A stretch of DNA of 64,000 nucleotides from Flavobacterium haoranii. Its GTDB lineage: Bacteria > Bacteroidota > Bacteroidia > Flavobacteriales > Flavobacteriaceae. Shown here piece by piece: positions 24,629-41,155 of the stretch. The notes beneath the pieces are model-generated. The model had not been told where the DNA came from. It saw only the letters and a list, made by a program, of their open reading frames with translations, and ran no database searches. Numbering within the stretch: the first letter of the stretch is position 1; every line of letters begins with the position of its first letter. The position numbers were made by a program, and so were the translations under genes. Location of the stretch: assembly GCA_003246205.1 (NCBI GenBank), contig QKBC01000005.1, forward strand, positions 1 through 64,000, written 5' to 3'.

Positions 24629-27600
24629 TTAATCGGCTATATTTGGTGCTAACCATTTTTGAGCTTCTTCATTTGTAATATTTCTTCTTTTAGCGTAATC
24701 TTCCACTTGGTCGTTTTTAATTTTTCCTAAACCAAAATATTTACTTTCTGGATTAGCAAAATAATAACCCGAAACAGAAGCCGCAGGCCACATTGCCATA
24801 CTTTCAGTTAACGTAACTCCTATTTGATTTTCAACGTCTAACAATTTCCAAATCATTGGTTTTTCCAAATGATCAGGACAAGCCGGATAACCTGGCGCCG
24901 GACGAATTCCAGCATAACTTTCTTTAATTAATTCGCTATTACTGAAATTTTCTTCTTGAGCATAACCCCAAAATTCTTTTCGCACTTTTAAATGCAAATA
25001 TTCTGCGAAAGCTTCCGCCAAACGATCAGCTAAAGCTTTTACCAAAATGGAATTGTAATCGTCTAAATTCTTTTCGAACTCGGCTGCTTTTTCGTCTACA
25101 CCAAAACCTGTAGTCACACAAAATGTTCCGATGTAATCTTGTTTTCCACTTTCTTTTGGCGCAATAAAATCGGAAAGAGCAATATTAGGTGCACCAACCG
25201 TTTTTTGTGATTGTTGTCTGAGAGTCAAAAAAGTTGTTGGTTGTTGGTTGTTGGTTGTTGGTTCAACTTCTATATCATCGTCGTTAACTGTATTGGCTGG
25301 AAAAATTCCGAAAACCGCTTTGGCAACAAACCATTTTTCGTCAATAATTTGCTGTAACATTTTTTGAGCATCGGCAAATAAAGAAGTAGCTTGTTCGCCA
25401 ACAACCTCATCGGTTAAAATTGCCGGATATTTTCCGTACAATTCCCATGATTGAAAAAATGGCATCCAATCGATAAAATCAACCAATTCCGAAAGAGCAA
25501 CTTCTAATGTTTGTGTTCCAATCTTATTTGGTTTTACCGGTTGGTACGTTTCCCAATCGATTTTGAATTTATTTTTACGCGCGTCTTCAATGGATAAGTA
25601 ATTCTTTTCGCGACCACGATTCAAATAACCTTCCCTCAACTTATCGTATTCTTCGCGAATGTTTTTAGCGTAATTTCCTTTGGTTTCAGTTTGCAACAAA
25701 TTTGAAGCAACAGTTACCGCTCGCGATGCATCGTTTACGTGAACCACCGTATCTTTATATTCGGGTGCAATTTTTACAGCAGTATGCGCTCGAGAAGTTG
25801 TTGCGCCACCAATCATCATTGGAATATTGATCTTTAATTTATCCAATTCTTTGGCCAAATACACCATTTCGTCTAACGAAGGCGTAATTAATCCGCTTAA
25901 ACCAATAATGTCTACTTTTTCTTTAATTGCTGTTTCAATAATTTTTTCGGGCGGAACCATAACTCCCAAATCGATAATTTCGAAGTTATTACAAGCCAAA
26001 ACTACCGAAACAATATTTTTACCGATATCGTGAACATCGCCTTTAACAGTTGCCATCAAAATACGACCAGCCCCTCCCGTCCCCGAAGGGGAAGCTACAC
26101 TGTTTGCGGTTATTTCTTTACGAATAAATTCAATAGTATTAAACAAATCATTTAACACTTGTCTATTGGTAAATCTTATTACTTTAAAACCTTTGGATTC
26201 AAACCATTCTGTTCTTAATTGATCGTGCTCTTTCTGTTCTACTGTAGCATGAACCAAACCATCTACTTCTATAACCAATCGCTTTTCTAAACATACAAAA
26301 TCAACAATGTATTCTCCGATTATATGCTGTCTCCTAAATTTAAAGCCATCCAATCCTTTATTCGATAAAACATTCCATAACATTTTCTCCGCTTCTGTTG
26401 GCTTATTCCGCATTTCTTTGGCTTTTTCTTTCAAAACTTCGTATAAAGCAGGGTTTGCAGTTTCCCATGATTGTTTTTCCTTATCATTTGAAACTCCCCC
26501 TTCGGGGGTTGGGGGGCTTATATAAGGCAGCAAATACGCAACTGCTTTTTTCATCACACGAGCCGATTTTACTACTTGAGGCAAAAACATTTTTCCGGAA
26601 CCAAACAAATCACCCACTACATTCATTCCGTTCATTAAGTTATTTTCGATAACTTCAATAGGTTTGGTAACCGAAAGTCGAGCTTCTTCTACATCTTGCT
26701 CAATGAATTCGTCAACACCTTTTACTAACGAATGCGTCAATCGTTCCTGAATTGTTCCATTTCTCCATTCTTGAATTGCTTTTTCCGAAACTTTGGTATC
26801 GCCTTTAATTTTTTCGGCATACTCCAATAAACGTTCGGTTGCATCGTCTTTTCTGTCCAACAAAACATCTTCTACATATTCCAGAAGTTCTTTGTCAATT
26901 TCATCATATATTTCCAACATTTCAGGATTCACAATTCCCATGGTCATTCCGTGCTGAATGGCATGAAATAGAAATACCGAATGCATGGCTTCGCGAACTT
27001 TATCGTTTCCACGGAAAGAAAACGAAACGTTACTTACACCACCCGAAACATGAGCACAAGGCAAGTTTTCACGAATCCATTTTGTTGCTTTGAAAAAATC
27101 AATCGCGTTTTTACGATGTTCTTCCATTCCGGTTGCTACCGGGAAAATATTGGGATCAAAAATGATATCTTCGGCAGGAAAACCTACTTTTTGAACCAAG
27201 ATATCATAAGAGCGTTTACAAATTTCAATTCGTCTTTCATAAGTATCGGCTTGACCTACCTCGTCAAAAGCCATAACAATGACAGCCGCACCGTAACGGT
27301 GAATTAATTTGGCATGATGAATAAATTTTTCTTCTCCTTCTTTTAAGGAAATCGAATTTACAACACCTTTACCTTGAACTACTTTTAAACCGGCTTCGAT
27401 GATTTCCCATTTCGAACTATCAATCATCACCGGAACACGAGCAATATCGGGTTCGGCAGCAATTAAATTCAGGAATTTTGTCATAGCGTAAACGCCATCT
27501 AACATTCCTTCGTCCATATTGATATCGATGATTTGGGCACCACCTTCTACTTGAGCTCTAGCAATATCAAGAGCTTCGTCGTATTTTTCTTCTTTAATTA

Positions 27601-27730
27601 AACGAAGAAATTTTCGTGAACCCGTAACGTTTGTTCGTTCTCCAACATTAATAAAATTAGATTCCGCAGTAACAATTAACGGTTCTAATCCTGAAAGTTT
27701 TAAATATTTTGTACAGTCTGACTCTGCCAT
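24629..27730 (-). CDS. metH: Cobalamin-dependent methionine synthase, folate/B12/activation part, with an in-frame DUF559 insert
   Basis: 1033 aa carrying everything of MetH except the homocysteine domain. Order: pterin-binding barrel (about 1-300, [17 protein letters not shown]), cap helices (about 305-400), a foreign 150-residue DUF559 block at 405-554, the B12 Rossmann domain (555-690, lower-axial His about 567 in [11 protein letters not shown]), and the SAM activation domain (about 730-1033, with [12 protein letters not shown]). A heptamer repeat tract adds [10 protein letters not shown] at about 822-833. All MetH motifs are intact and the frame is open throughout, so the protein may be active. 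ATG overlaps the stop of the homocysteine-domain gene by one base. Confidence 0.95.
25233..25267. repeat. Heptamer tandem repeat tract in metH
   Basis: Four perfect GTTGTTG units and a fifth partial unit (GTTCAAC), in the metH coding frame. It lies in a loop of the activation domain and encodes TTNNQQPTT on the minus strand. Confidence 0.8.
26069..26518 (-). mobile_element. 450-bp inverted-repeat element encoding a DUF559 nuclease domain, inserted in metH
   Basis: The unit is bounded by GC-rich inverted repeats: AGCCCC + TCCCGT + CCCCGAAGGGGA at 26069-26092 and, read in reverse, AGCCCC + CCAA + CCCCCGAAGGGGGA at 26518-26495. Each contains its own CCCC-GAA-GGGG hairpin. Length is exactly 150 codons and it begins on a codon boundary, so the metH frame passes through (ends read [10 protein letters not shown] and ASPSGTGGA). 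Inside is a DUF559 domain: [20 protein letters not shown] and [10 protein letters not shown] supply Asp about 477, Glu about 488 and Asp about 490 of a PD-(D/E)XK-type site. Ordinary MetH has only a short linker here. Mobility is inferred from the repeats, composition and position. Confidence 0.75.
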
Positions 27731-28719
27731 TATGCTTCAACTTGAGTAGTTCTTGGTTTAAATTCTTGCGCCACCTCAGCAATCAGTTTAATGTGCTCGG
27801 GTGTCGTTCCACAGCATCCGCCGATGATATTCACTAAATTTTCTTGTAAATAATCACGAATTAATTGCTGCATTTCTTCCGGTGTTTGGTCATATTGTCC
27901 GAAGGCATTCGGTAAACCCGCATTGGGATGTGCCGAAATATTAAGACTTGTATTTTGACCTAATCTTTTTAAATACGGTTTCAACTGATCGGCTCCTAAA
28001 GCACAATTGAACCCAACACTTAACAAAGGAATATGTTGAATGGAAATCAAGAATGCTTCTACCGTTTGCCCAGATAAAGTTCGACCGGAAGCATCAGTAA
28101 TAGTTCCCGAAACCATAACAGGAACATCAATTTTTCGTTCTTCTTTTACTTCTTCAATAGCGAACAACGCCGCTTTAGCATTTAATGTGTCAAAAATAGT
28201 TTCCACCAAAAGCAAATCGGCACCACCGTCTAACAACGCTTCTACTTGTTGTCGATAAGCAATCTTTAAATCGTCAAAAGTTACGGCACGAAATCCCGGA
28301 TCATTCACATCGGGTGACATAGAAGCCGTACGATTTGTTGGCCCAATAGAACCCGCAACAAATCTTGGCTTATCTTTAAACTCATCTGCCACTTCACGAG
28401 CAATTTTAGCCGATTGAAAATTGAGTTCGTAAACCAAATCTTCCATGTGATAATCAGCCATACCAATGGTTGTTCCCGAAAAGGTATTGGTTTCCACAAT
28501 ATCAGCGCCCGCCTCAAAATAGGCACGATGCACTGATTTTACGGCTTCGGGTTGCGTTATAGAGAGTAAATCGTTATTTCCTTTTAAAGGGTGTGGAAAA
28601 TCTTTAAAGCGTTCGCTTCTAAAATCTTCTTCTTCAAATTTAAAGCGCTGCAACATGGTTCCCATGGCGCCGTCTAGCACTAAAATTCTATTTTTTAATT
28701 CGTCTTGTATAGTTGGCAT
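27730..28719 (-). CDS. Methionine synthase homocysteine-binding domain (separate MetH N-terminal gene)
   Basis: 329 aa matching the first barrel of Met[13 protein letters not shown] start, [14 protein letters not shown], and the zinc cysteines in [10 protein letters not shown] and [13 protein letters not shown]. It binds and activates homocysteine thiolate for methyl transfer and must work with the product of the next gene. A natural gene split, not a frameshift: it has its own stop, and the next gene its own ATG with a 1-base overlap. First gene after the SAM-I riboswitch. Confidence 0.93.
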
Positions 28720-28763: not shown

Positions 28764-28893
28764 GTAGTTAGGAAAACTAAACGTTATCTGTTTCCGATTT
28801 GCATCAGAATAGAATGTAGCACCTTCTACAAGAGTAGGGTTGCTAAGCGTTCGTTGGGTCTATTCCCTCCCGCTTTCGTGATAACAAAAACAC
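28751..28893 (-). promoter_or_regulatory. SAM-I (S-box) riboswitch
   Basis: On the minus strand the S-box core is readable in order: GTTATCA (P1 5' strand), AAGCGGGAGGGAATAGACCC, GCTTAGCAACC, AAGGTGCTACATTC, and TGATAAC (P1 3' strand at 28757-28763). These match the conserved GAGGGA, GCAACC and AAGGTGCTA blocks of SAM-I aptamers. It precedes the split metH and metF, the usual kind of target: high SAM should lower synthesis of methionine. Confidence 0.93.
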
Positions 28894-37515: not shown

Positions 37516-37525
37516 CAACCGAATT

Positions 37526-37576
37526 CGAGGAAAAATTTGAACTGATTGCAACCTCATAAAAAAATGCTAAAGCAGT
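37526..37576 (+). promoter_or_regulatory. SAM-II riboswitch upstream of metK
   Basis: P1 CGAGG (37526-37530) with CCTC (37552-37555); loop ATTTGAAC then ATTGCAA; then CATAAA and TGCTAAA; pseudoknot ACTG (37541-37544) with CAGT (37573-37576). These match the SAM-II core AUUU-AAC, AUUGCAA, AUAAA and GCUAAA in order, while the pseudoknot pairs differ in sequence but still pair. It sits at the very start of the predicted metK transcript, so SAM would limit its own synthesis. GCTAAA (37566-37571) could also pair with TTTAGC (37587-37592), followed by TTTTT. Confidence 0.82.
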
Positions 37577-37640
37577 GTTTACTCCTTTTAGCTTTTTCCT
37601 GCAACAAATTTTCCTCACTCATTTTTAAAATAAAATTATT

Positions 37641-38974: not shown

Positions 38975-41155
38975 ATGAAGGAAAAACTACGAATTGTATT
39001 TTTATCTTTAGCTTTTATATTCCCTGTATTTATATTTGGCCAAATAGGCATTAACACAACAAATCCCAAAGCCGCACTGGATATCAAGGCTTCAAATCCT
39101 TCTACACCAAACAATCAAGACGGGATTTTAATTCCCCGAGTGGCTGTATTTCCAAGCACCAATCCAACCGCTGATCAAAACGGAATGCTTCTATTTTTAA
39201 CAAATGTTAGCGGAACCTACCAACCCGGCTTATATTATTGGGACAATCCGACGCACAAATGGATTGCTATCGCTTCTTCTAAAAATGTTTGGTTCACAAC
39301 CGGAAATAATGGTATTGACAGCAACAATAATTTTATAGGAACTACAGACGACAAAGATTTTTTAATCAGAAGGAACAATACCGAATCAGGATTAATAGGT
39401 ACTGAGAATACTTCTTATGGTTATAACTCTCTTAAAACAAACTCATCAGGAACCAAAAATACCAGTTTCGGAAGCAATTCGCTAAGTTCTAATTCATCCG
39501 GAAGTTATAACACAGCTATAGGAAACGGAACTTTAACCGCAAACAACTCCGGTTATGAAAATACTGCAGAAGGCTACAATGCTTTAACCTTAAATAATTC
39601 AGGCTATTACAACACAGCTATCGGGAGTAATAGTATGACTAAAAACACTTCCGGAAATTACAATACTGCTGTCGGCACTTATGCATTAACCGAAAACACT
39701 ATCGGAATAAACAATACGGTAGTTGGCGTTAATTCCTTACGAAAAAACACTTCCGGAAATGAAAATACAGCCATGGGTGTTTATAGCATGTATAATAATA
39801 CTAACGGTAAAAACAATACAGCTGTCGGTTCCTACGCTATGTTGAGCAACACAACGGGAAAATATAACACTGCTATTGGTAGTGCTGCATTAAATTCCAA
39901 TCAAGGCGGAGAAAATAACAATGCTTTCGGATTCGGAGCATTACGTTCTAATTCAACCGGAAACAGCAATTCTGCAATAGGAGTAAATGCTATGTATTCT
40001 AATGCCACAGGAAATAAAAACATTGCCATAGGGGAAAATACTTTATACACTAATGTTTCCGGAAATGAAAATATAGCAATCGGTTTTAATGCTTTGAATA
40101 AAAACACTATAGGAACTCAAAATACTGCTTTAGGAAGCAATTCTTTAGAAAATAATGTTTCCGGGACTAAAAACAATGCTATCGGTTTTAATTCCTTAAA
40201 CAAAAACACTAGCGGAAATGAAAATATTGCTTTCGGTTCCAATACTCTAGAAAATAACACGACAGGCAGCCAAAACACTGCTATCGGAACCTATTCATTG
40301 CAAGGTAACATCAACGGAATTAAAAATACAGCTATGGGAGAGAATAGTTTACTAGTCAATTCCAGTGGAAACTCTAATACCTCAATAGGTGTAGGAAGTT
40401 TAGAAAATAACACCAATGGCAATGAAAATACTGCTTTAGGAACAGAGTCTCTTTACTACAATATTAACGGTAGTTCTAACTTAGCTTTAGGAAAAGGCTC
40501 TTTAAGAGCAAATCAAAACGGTAATTACAACACCGCTTCCGGAGCATTAGCTTTAAACGGCAATGTTAACGGAAATAATAATACAGCTATTGGCTACCGT
40601 GCTTTTTACAATGGTAATTATAGCAATTCTACGGCTATCGGATACAATACAGTCATCAACGGAAATAACCAGATTCGTTTAGGAAATTATTATATAACCA
40701 GCATCGGAGGTTTTGTAAACTGGTCTAATCTTTCGGATAAACGTTTTAAGAAAAACGTACAAGAAGACGTGATTGGCTTAGATTTTATTTTACGATTAAA
40801 ACCAGTAACTTATAATCTGGACCTTGACCGACTACAACAATTTTTAGGAAATAACGATCCTAGTAATGATCTAAACAAAAATGAAAACGTTCGTTTTTCC
40901 GGTTTTTTAGCACAAGATGTTGAGGCTTCTGCAAATGCCGTAGGTTATGATTTCAGTGGAATTGACAAACCTCAGAATGAAAACGGCCACTATAGTCTGC
41001 GATATGCTGAATTTGTTGTTCCGTTAGTAAAAGCGACACAAGAGCAACAAACAGAAATAGAAACACTGAAAAAAGAATTAGAAGATGAACGCCAAAAGAA
41101 TAAGGAATTAGAAAACCGTTTAGAGCGTCTGGAAAAATTACTTTTAAAAGAATAA
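38975..41155 (+). CDS. Exported fibre-like protein with NTAIG repeats and C-terminal S74 intramolecular chaperone domain
   Basis: 726 aa from ATG 38975, with signal peptide MKEKLRIVFLSLAFIFPVFIFG. Residues after it (IGINTTNPKAALDIKA) are common in Bacteroidota fibre proteins. About residues 150-560 are a long series of ~23-residue repeats with the core NTAIGxxSLxxNxSGxxN, like the left-handed beta-roll of trimeric adhesin heads (YadA/Hep_Hag). The end has a peptidase S74 / endosialidase chaperone domain (WSNLSDKRFKKNVQ; FSGFLAQDVE; YAEFVVPLVKA) and a coiled coil. In phage tail spikes this domain trimerises and then cleaves itself off at its start. Probably a trimeric surface fibre; target unknown. 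Confidence 0.85.
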   Translation: MKEKLRIVFLSLAFIFPVFIFGQIGINTTNPKAALDIKASNPSTPNNQDGILIPRVAVFPSTNPTADQNGMLLFLTNVSGTYQPGLYYWDNPTHKWIAIASSKNVWFTTGNNGIDSNNNFIGTTDDKDFLIRRNNTESGLIGTENTSYGYNSLKTNSSGTKNTSFGSNSLSSNSSGSYNTAIGNGTLTANNSGYENTAEGYNALTLNNSGYYNTAIGSNSMTKNTSGNYNTAVGTYALTENTIGINNTVVGVNSLRKNTSGNENTAMGVYSMYNNTNGKNNTAVGSYAMLSNTTGKYNTAIGSAALNSNQGGENNNAFGFGALRSNSTGNSNSAIGVNAMYSNATGNKNIAIGENTLYTNVSGNENIAIGFNALNKNTIGTQNTALGSNSLENNVSGTKNNAIGFNSLNKNTSGNENIAFGSNTLENNTTGSQNTAIGTYSLQGNINGIKNTAMGENSLLVNSSGNSNTSIGVGSLENNTNGNENTALGTESLYYNINGSSNLALGKGSLRANQNGNYNTASGALALNGNVNGNNNTAIGYRAFYNGNYSNSTAIGYNTVINGNNQIRLGNYYITSIGGFVNWSNLSDKRFKKNVQEDVIGLDFILRLKPVTYNLDLDRLQQFLGNNDPSNDLNKNENVRFSGFLAQDVEASANAVGYDFSGIDKPQNENGHYSLRYAEFVVPLVKATQEQQTEIETLKKELEDERQKNKELENRLERLEKLLLKE

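Follow-up and report, generated by a model that had tools for sequence, protein, structure and literature searches.

How can methionine synthase, a conserved enzyme, carry a nuclease domain inside its own chain, and how would such a domain have come to be there? We addressed this in a 64,000-nt stretch of Flavobacterium haoranii DNA (contig QKBC01000005.1; hereafter the window), in which the methionine synthase gene metH contains a 450-nt block that we call the cassette. The block is exactly 150 codons long, lies in the metH frame, has GC-rich inverted ends and encodes a DUF559 domain; the initial annotation of this DNA had described it in these terms and proved right to the base. As had also been claimed, the frame stays open across both repeats, and the open reading frame (ORF) of 1033 residues has no interruption. 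Pfam places DUF559 (residues 433-540) between the B12-binding_2 cap (328-400) and the B12-binding domain (555-646), in agreement with the proposed insertion between the cap and cobalamin domains. With a little more belief than doubt, we read the block as a selfish cassette: a predicted Vsr-type nuclease between GC-rich inverted repeats, in frame in metH and at least ten other conserved families, which would spread via homing-like gene conversion.

The ends of the cassette stand out in composition and in sequence. The two 30-nt ends have a GC content of 70% and 67%, compared with 32% in the core and 33.7% across the window, and the inverted arms at 26072-26099 and 26489-26516 are 75% complementary over 28 nt (Table 1). 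As RNA, the left palindrome is predicted to form a hairpin of -11.7 kcal/mol (z -1.9, with a few flanking bases included); the predicted fold of the right palindrome is barely above shuffles and its energy is unremarkable. With up to one mismatch, CCCCNTTCGGGG occurs at two places in the 64 kb, both of them cassette ends, against 0.10 expected. In the genome's own 2.42-Mb assembly, which is 74.5% complete, exact matches to CCCCTTCGGGG are confined to the cassette ends, one mismatch adds a single further place, and the metH cassette is the only DUF559 match at the cut-offs used. The extent of the unit was confirmed in L007, a Flavobacterium metagenome-assembled genome (MAG), where one metH holds two cassettes, one at the position occupied in the window (site A) and the other (site B) in a loop within the activation domain. 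Across the domain, the DNA of these two copies shows 82% identity; their likeness ends at AGCCCC and GGGGCT, corresponding to window positions 26518 and 26069, so the ends of the unit are fixed independently of the host frame.

Table 1 Features of the metH locus, in window coordinates.
Feature	Position	Strand	Sequence or reading	Basis
metH C-terminal part (pterin, cap, cobalamin, activation domains)	24629..27730	-	Frame intact	ORF list and Pfam
metH N-terminal part, separate ORF overlapping the next start	27730..28719	-		ORF list
Whole in-frame cassette	26069..26518	-	450 nt = 150 codons, AGCCCC...GGGGCT	Two L007 copies compared, empty G289 allele
Left terminal palindrome (coding side)	26492..26518	-	AGCCCCCCAACCCCCGAAGGGGGAGTT, read SPPTPEGGV	Sequence, inverted arms, L007 comparison
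Right terminal palindrome	26069..26096	-	AGCTTCCCCTTCGGGGACGGGAGGGGCT, read ASPSGTGGA	Sequence, inverted arms, L007 comparison
DUF559 / Vsr-like PD-(D/E)XK nuclease domain	26111..26434	-	D...ExD and upstream E kept	Pfam, family residue counts, predicted fold
Second metH insertion site (site B)	25233..25268	-	No cassette; in-frame 7-base tandem repeat	

Between these ends, Pfam matched only DUF559 and MTES_1575. The DUF559 match (PF04480) has an E value of 4.9e-35 and 120.1 bits, against a gathering score of 20.6, and together with the residue counts across the family it bears out the claim that the interior is a DUF559 domain with its D...ExD residues kept. The catalytic pattern is retained in 143 of 146 embedded copies from other loci, and the median dN/dS of the cassette domains is 0.23, indicating purifying selection. 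The predicted fold resembles the endonuclease-like protein 3hrl, the homing endonuclease I-Bth0305I (3r3p) and Vsr, a match that goes beyond the initial annotation and suggests a homing-type nuclease with an intact active site. Start codons are not depleted upstream of the embedded domains: a Met lies within 35 residues in 71 of 146, about the background level. An AlphaFold model of the whole 1033-residue MetH was poor (mean pLDDT 64.1, pTM 0.38), and we therefore make no claim on domain packing.

The position in conserved enzymes and the GC-rich palindromes at both ends recall intervening sequences that are removed after transcription or translation, by way of an intein, an intron or a translational bypass. 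Embedded copies, however, are open through both ends and core, which removal at the RNA level would not require, and we find this explanation barely credible for the cassette. Pfam contains no splicing domain match here, making an intein unlikely, as the initial annotation had held, and the two Rfam matches lie elsewhere and include no intron; both an intein and an intron were rejected. If the whole unit is translated in frame, as we read it, no splicing would be needed.

Next to occupied metH genes there are empty ones. A MetH fragment is present in 134 of 140 genomes of the genus; by a hand count of open-frame lengths from the listing, 12 of these carry one or two cassettes with the frame intact, and in three further genomes (G253, G261, G231) the cassette-bearing metH runs into a contig end or has a broken frame. 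Eight genomes have a MetH of about 1250 residues, which we read as fused full-length MetH. The nearest metH found, that of G289, lacks the cassette and is otherwise very similar (97% in amino acids over the fragment searched, 95.3% in DNA over 2712 aligned bases). There, 36 nt (EASKDGSTSSSA) correspond to the 450 nt of the window. The short loop expected of ordinary MetH is indeed present, but the cassette replaces most of it (12 codons) rather than being cleanly added. The difference from G289 may reflect a gain in the window line or a loss in the G289 line through allele exchange; in the 30 nt beside the cassette, the window has a likeness of 0.73 to the empty G289 allele versus 0.87 to the carrier L005. 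Two features of the G289 gene (L221) have no counterpart in the window: 27 nt inserted in frame, read GSSEANRRQ, and a segment at site B, read LTSDLSLPAESRSEK.

Presence of the cassette is scattered over the metH phylogeny. In a family-wide search the MetH query matched in 103 of 120 genomes, some weakly, and among the matches listed three, the window included, span site A unbroken. We built a metH tree of 771 columns and 105 rows with the cassettes excluded from the alignment; 106 of 138 loci had been readable at the MetH anchors, and one window duplicate was removed. On this selected set, site A requires at least 19 changes compared with 21.5 in shuffles (lowest 16), and its occupation thus barely tracks the gene tree. 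A vertically inherited, fixed MetH domain was rejected, since the closest metH is empty and presence is scattered; copies also lie in unrelated genes, and the pattern that the initial annotation had set against a mobile unit, a block shared by all close metH genes with no copies elsewhere, is not what we found. An assembly artefact of one MAG was rejected as well, because the block also occurs in isolates of F. branchiophilum, F. cucumis and F. columnare. One cassette-bearing metH (L029) lies on a contig labelled Candidatus Nitrotoga; as it groups within Flavobacterium, the contig was probably misbinned and does not argue for transfer.

To place the cassette among its relatives, we searched for DUF559 across the genus, where 78 of 199 genomes matched, and across a sample of the phylum, where 126 of 296 did. 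Seventy of 124 genus matches lie in open frames of at least 260 residues, none with an internal stop (hand count). Among the loci fetched, 146 distinct ORFs combine the domain with at least 120 residues of other sequence and fall into 26 clusters; the cassette scans excluded the window loci (L001-L004, L100) and the empty MetH loci, and identical ORFs or domains were counted once in clusters, tree and residue counts. Not every one of the 146 is a true insertion; where the domain is N-terminal, as in the HemF cluster, it may belong to a neighbour that is read through. Host Pfam domains flank the cassette on both sides in 11 families: MetH, LeuRS, RecG, UvrD-like helicase, HsdR, type ISP, Eco57I-like, a MeaB-mutase fusion, an epimerase/capsule protein, PcnB and DegT. 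This count leaves out an IleRS-like protein (L044), whose C-terminal host piece has no Pfam match, and HsdM (L199), with only a weak match after the cassette. The host profile ends at 61 and restarts at 61 in the capsule protein, and ends at 152 and restarts at 156 in DegT. The other in-frame copies that the initial annotation had proposed looking for are thus found in unrelated genes, many of them with inverted ends.

Searches of large proteins and of RecG gave a similar picture. Among the best 120 of 1857 large-protein matches MetH predominates, accompanied by some tRNA synthetases; several of these MetH appear to hold two cassettes, as suggested by bit scores above the self-score at lengths near 1165. 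Another protein search gave 24 matches, mostly in Hymenobacter, whose hosts include RecQ and a PD-(D/E)XK-family protein according to precomputed domains and names. In 80 other genomes of the genus, four RecG give a single unbroken match across the cassette among the matches listed; where both halves are among the matches listed in other genomes, the halves adjoin. Of the RecG sequences inspected, four are occupied and five empty, two of the latter holding a short insertion instead. In a phage collection (50,697 records) 11 records matched, all below 60% identity and none covering 80%; in a plasmid collection (72,556 records) 49 matched, all below 60% identity, seven of them covering 80%.

Could the block be a passive passenger, spread between species by recombination of metH alleles without involvement of the nuclease? 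Flavobacterium metH alleles do often gain, lose or exchange it, and the signal in its flanks is weak. The catalytic pattern and the low dN/dS are, however, maintained in a domain that the MetH of most relatives do without, and cassettes occur in many unrelated genes. We regard this account as improbable.

The inverted ends of the relatives were scored against a control of the same geometry, drawn 665 times from other parts of the loci, which had its 99% point at 14 and its maximum at 21. Among 156 embedded copies, 91 exceed 14 and 34 exceed 21, and 12 of 33 solo copies exceed 14, some loci in this scoring being the same genome fetched twice. The ends are perfect over 36-37 nt in PcnB (L050) and LeuRS (L151). 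End families vary in sequence (AGCCCC..., CCTCACCCC..., AATTCCCCTCC...), the strong ones being GC-rich palindromes with a tail. The length of repeat-to-repeat spans modulo 3 was uninformative because alignment edges shift.

On a tree of 178 cassette domains, host labels change 38 times compared with 122.8 in shuffles; with few columns for many rows, many of its forks are unresolved. The window's own domain is not in this tree, and its nearest relatives are MetH site A and site B cassettes at 0.77-0.80 identity. RecG cassettes form a single clade (98). MetH site A cassettes fall into at least three separate groups (starred branches), one mixed with site B and one from other families of the phylum, and LeuRS cassettes likewise into at least three. 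The same sites are thus occupied repeatedly, in distant lineages, and the pattern indicates cassettes that are mostly site-faithful, yet with jumps. Transposition through the palindromic termini could instead be at work: the termini would be the substrate, cleaved either by the DUF559 protein itself or in trans by another enzyme, the role that RAYT plays for repetitive extragenic palindromes (REPs), insertion would be fairly free, and recurrence would reflect the loops in which insertions survive. Consistent with this are the long and at times perfect inverted ends, each with a hairpin-like core, the presence of several cassette lineages at one site and of related cassettes in different genes, the clean split of the host profile in two hosts, and palindrome-only units that resemble miniature inverted-repeat transposable elements (MITEs). 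We hold transposition as the principal mode of spread to be somewhat unlikely, while giving it real weight.

Such palindrome-only units, which the initial annotation had not foreseen, are in-frame remnants of the cassette. Site B of MetH in L250 and L252 has nearly nothing left between two preserved ends, and in L005 a single palindrome is left there; at site A, L087 has a short palindrome; all are in frame. In RecG of G209 (L296) there is what resembles a left end joined to a right tip, again in frame. The LeuRS cassette of L157 has lost its palindromes and diverged in sequence. In relatives, the site B loop holds many differing short in-frame repeats or palindromes, and it looks like a hotspot for in-frame repeats.

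These remnants also bear on domestication, by which the domain would give MetH, RecG, LeuRS and other hosts a useful extra function and be kept by host selection. Purifying selection is what this would predict, several hosts act on nucleic acid (RecG, UvrD-like, HsdR), and in the part of the source available to us the Caulobacter DUF559 protein VsrA is linked to DNA damage (PMC12907096). A kept function fits poorly with scattered presence and empty close relatives, or with decayed and palindrome-only forms, and we consider domestication very unlikely.

The cassette would then behave as follows if homing-like conversion is correct. Translated as a part of its host protein, the nuclease would cleave an allele that lacks the cassette, or a sequence resembling one, at the insertion site or close to it; the occupied allele would then serve as the repair template, and the cassette would be copied into the cut allele. 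The palindromic ends would allow occasional jumps into other genes, more rarely than homing. Surviving landing sites would be loops that tolerate an extra Pro/Gly-linked domain, so the host enzyme would keep working, and interior or palindromes would decay later. Site fidelity, scattered presence, the conserved active site and the predicted fold fit homing-like conversion; the jumps and remnants suggest a role of the palindromic ends. The earlier idea of a small mobile unit that can be read as protein along its whole length is supported in this way, its movement being deduced from comparison.

Several observations weigh against homing-like spread. Neither cutting nor movement was observed. In six of nine occupied/empty pairs, against two of eight same-state control pairs, likeness is lower in the 27 nt to the right of the cassette than in the 300 nt that follow; this drop near the site is a weak signal that hints at co-conversion. 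Site B requires nine changes on the metH tree against 16.0 in shuffles (lowest 13); it is clustered, and spread is thus partly vertical. Some rows of that tree were chosen as carriers, which makes the 19 changes at site A a minimum on a selected set and not a rate. The occurrence of several lineages at site A could be explained by a tolerant loop alone. Inverted repeats at other DUF559 insertions, as the initial annotation expected, exist for many copies, but 65 of 156 embedded and 21 of 33 solo copies are not above the control 99% point, and no RecG cassette (0 of 13) has an inverted repeat above 14. Comparison of metH orthologues gave the anticipated empty site in G289 but no recognisable target-site duplication, the host loop being replaced or altered at MetH site A and in RecG. 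With a single cassette in its own assembly, there was no burst. Finally, among the metH alleles inspected, three are frame-broken at or in a cassette, those of F. covae (L023), F. davisii (L021) and G231 (L258/L120). The breaks in L023, L021 and L258 are either real or sequencing errors, and homopolymer runs in the cassette ends might be prone to slippage.

We tentatively propose, with slightly less than even confidence, a mobile element of a new class, in which a self-contained homing nuclease is retained as an in-frame domain of essential enzymes, has palindromic ends that are themselves coding, and homes into and hops between core genes across Bacteroidota. If true, being translated and tolerated would be an alternative to splicing for selfish nucleases in essential genes. 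It would supply naturally occurring examples of domain insertion into conserved enzymes (MetH, LeuRS, RecG, HsdR), explain many 'DUF559 domain-containing' fusion annotations and make testable whether such insertions lead to new multidomain proteins, and palindrome-only scars suggest an origin of short in-frame repeats in bacterial proteins.

Elsewhere in the window, the ORF that overlaps the start of the cassette-bearing one is presumably the homocysteine methyltransferase part of MetH. The Rfam scan placed a SAM (S-box) riboswitch upstream of metH (28781-28887, minus strand) and a SAM-II riboswitch at 37521-37580 (plus strand). A tandem repeat of 102 bases, in about two copies, lies at 40037-40287.

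In the openly licensed literature, represented mostly by titles and abstract openings, we found no description of DUF559 that is flanked by palindromes or inserted in frame. To our knowledge, selfish nucleases inside essential genes rely on splicing, as introns or inteins. Homing endonucleases are normally carried in introns or inteins or are free-standing; the cassette resembles their elements in occupying fixed sites of conserved genes that are empty in close kin, and differs from the Vsr-like I-Bth0305I (3r3p) in that its nuclease forms a domain of the host reading frame, bounded by palindromes and with no intein or intron. Inteins have a splicing domain with a nucleophile and Asn ends, whereas the cassette has no splicing-domain Pfam match and its ends read SPPTPEGG and SPSGTGGA. 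DUF559 and endonuclease-like proteins such as 3hrl (NGO0050; a construct of 104 residues) and Caulobacter VsrA are taken as separate small proteins, unlike the domain embedded here in another enzyme.

The cassette shares with REP/RAYT systems short GC-rich palindromes plus an encoded DNA-processing enzyme. RAYTs, in the portion of the source seen, are tyrosine transposases near the repeats (PMC3733652), whereas the cassette has a DUF559 nuclease between them; it has no Pfam match to a tyrosine transposase, and no RAYT search was made in the rest of the genome. REPs in ORFs also occur in DNA repair genes and tRNA synthetases, according to the same partial source (PMC3733652). PARCEL elements are likewise protein-coding palindromes thought to spread by transfer; they are tandem amphipathic repeats, and the main text describing them does not contain the word nuclease (PMC2996958, in part). 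With MITEs and insertion sequences, the window cassette and many relatives have terminal inverted repeats in common. We know of no enzyme encoded by Rickettsia palindromic elements. These elements resemble the cassette in being palindromic units that are inserted into unrelated housekeeping genes without a break of the frame and can be read as protein (PMC10969869, PMC3733652; both in part). They differ in size and content, being described in the accessible part of PMC10969869 as about 150 bp long with a conserved peptide, whereas the cassette spans 450 nt and holds a whole nuclease domain.
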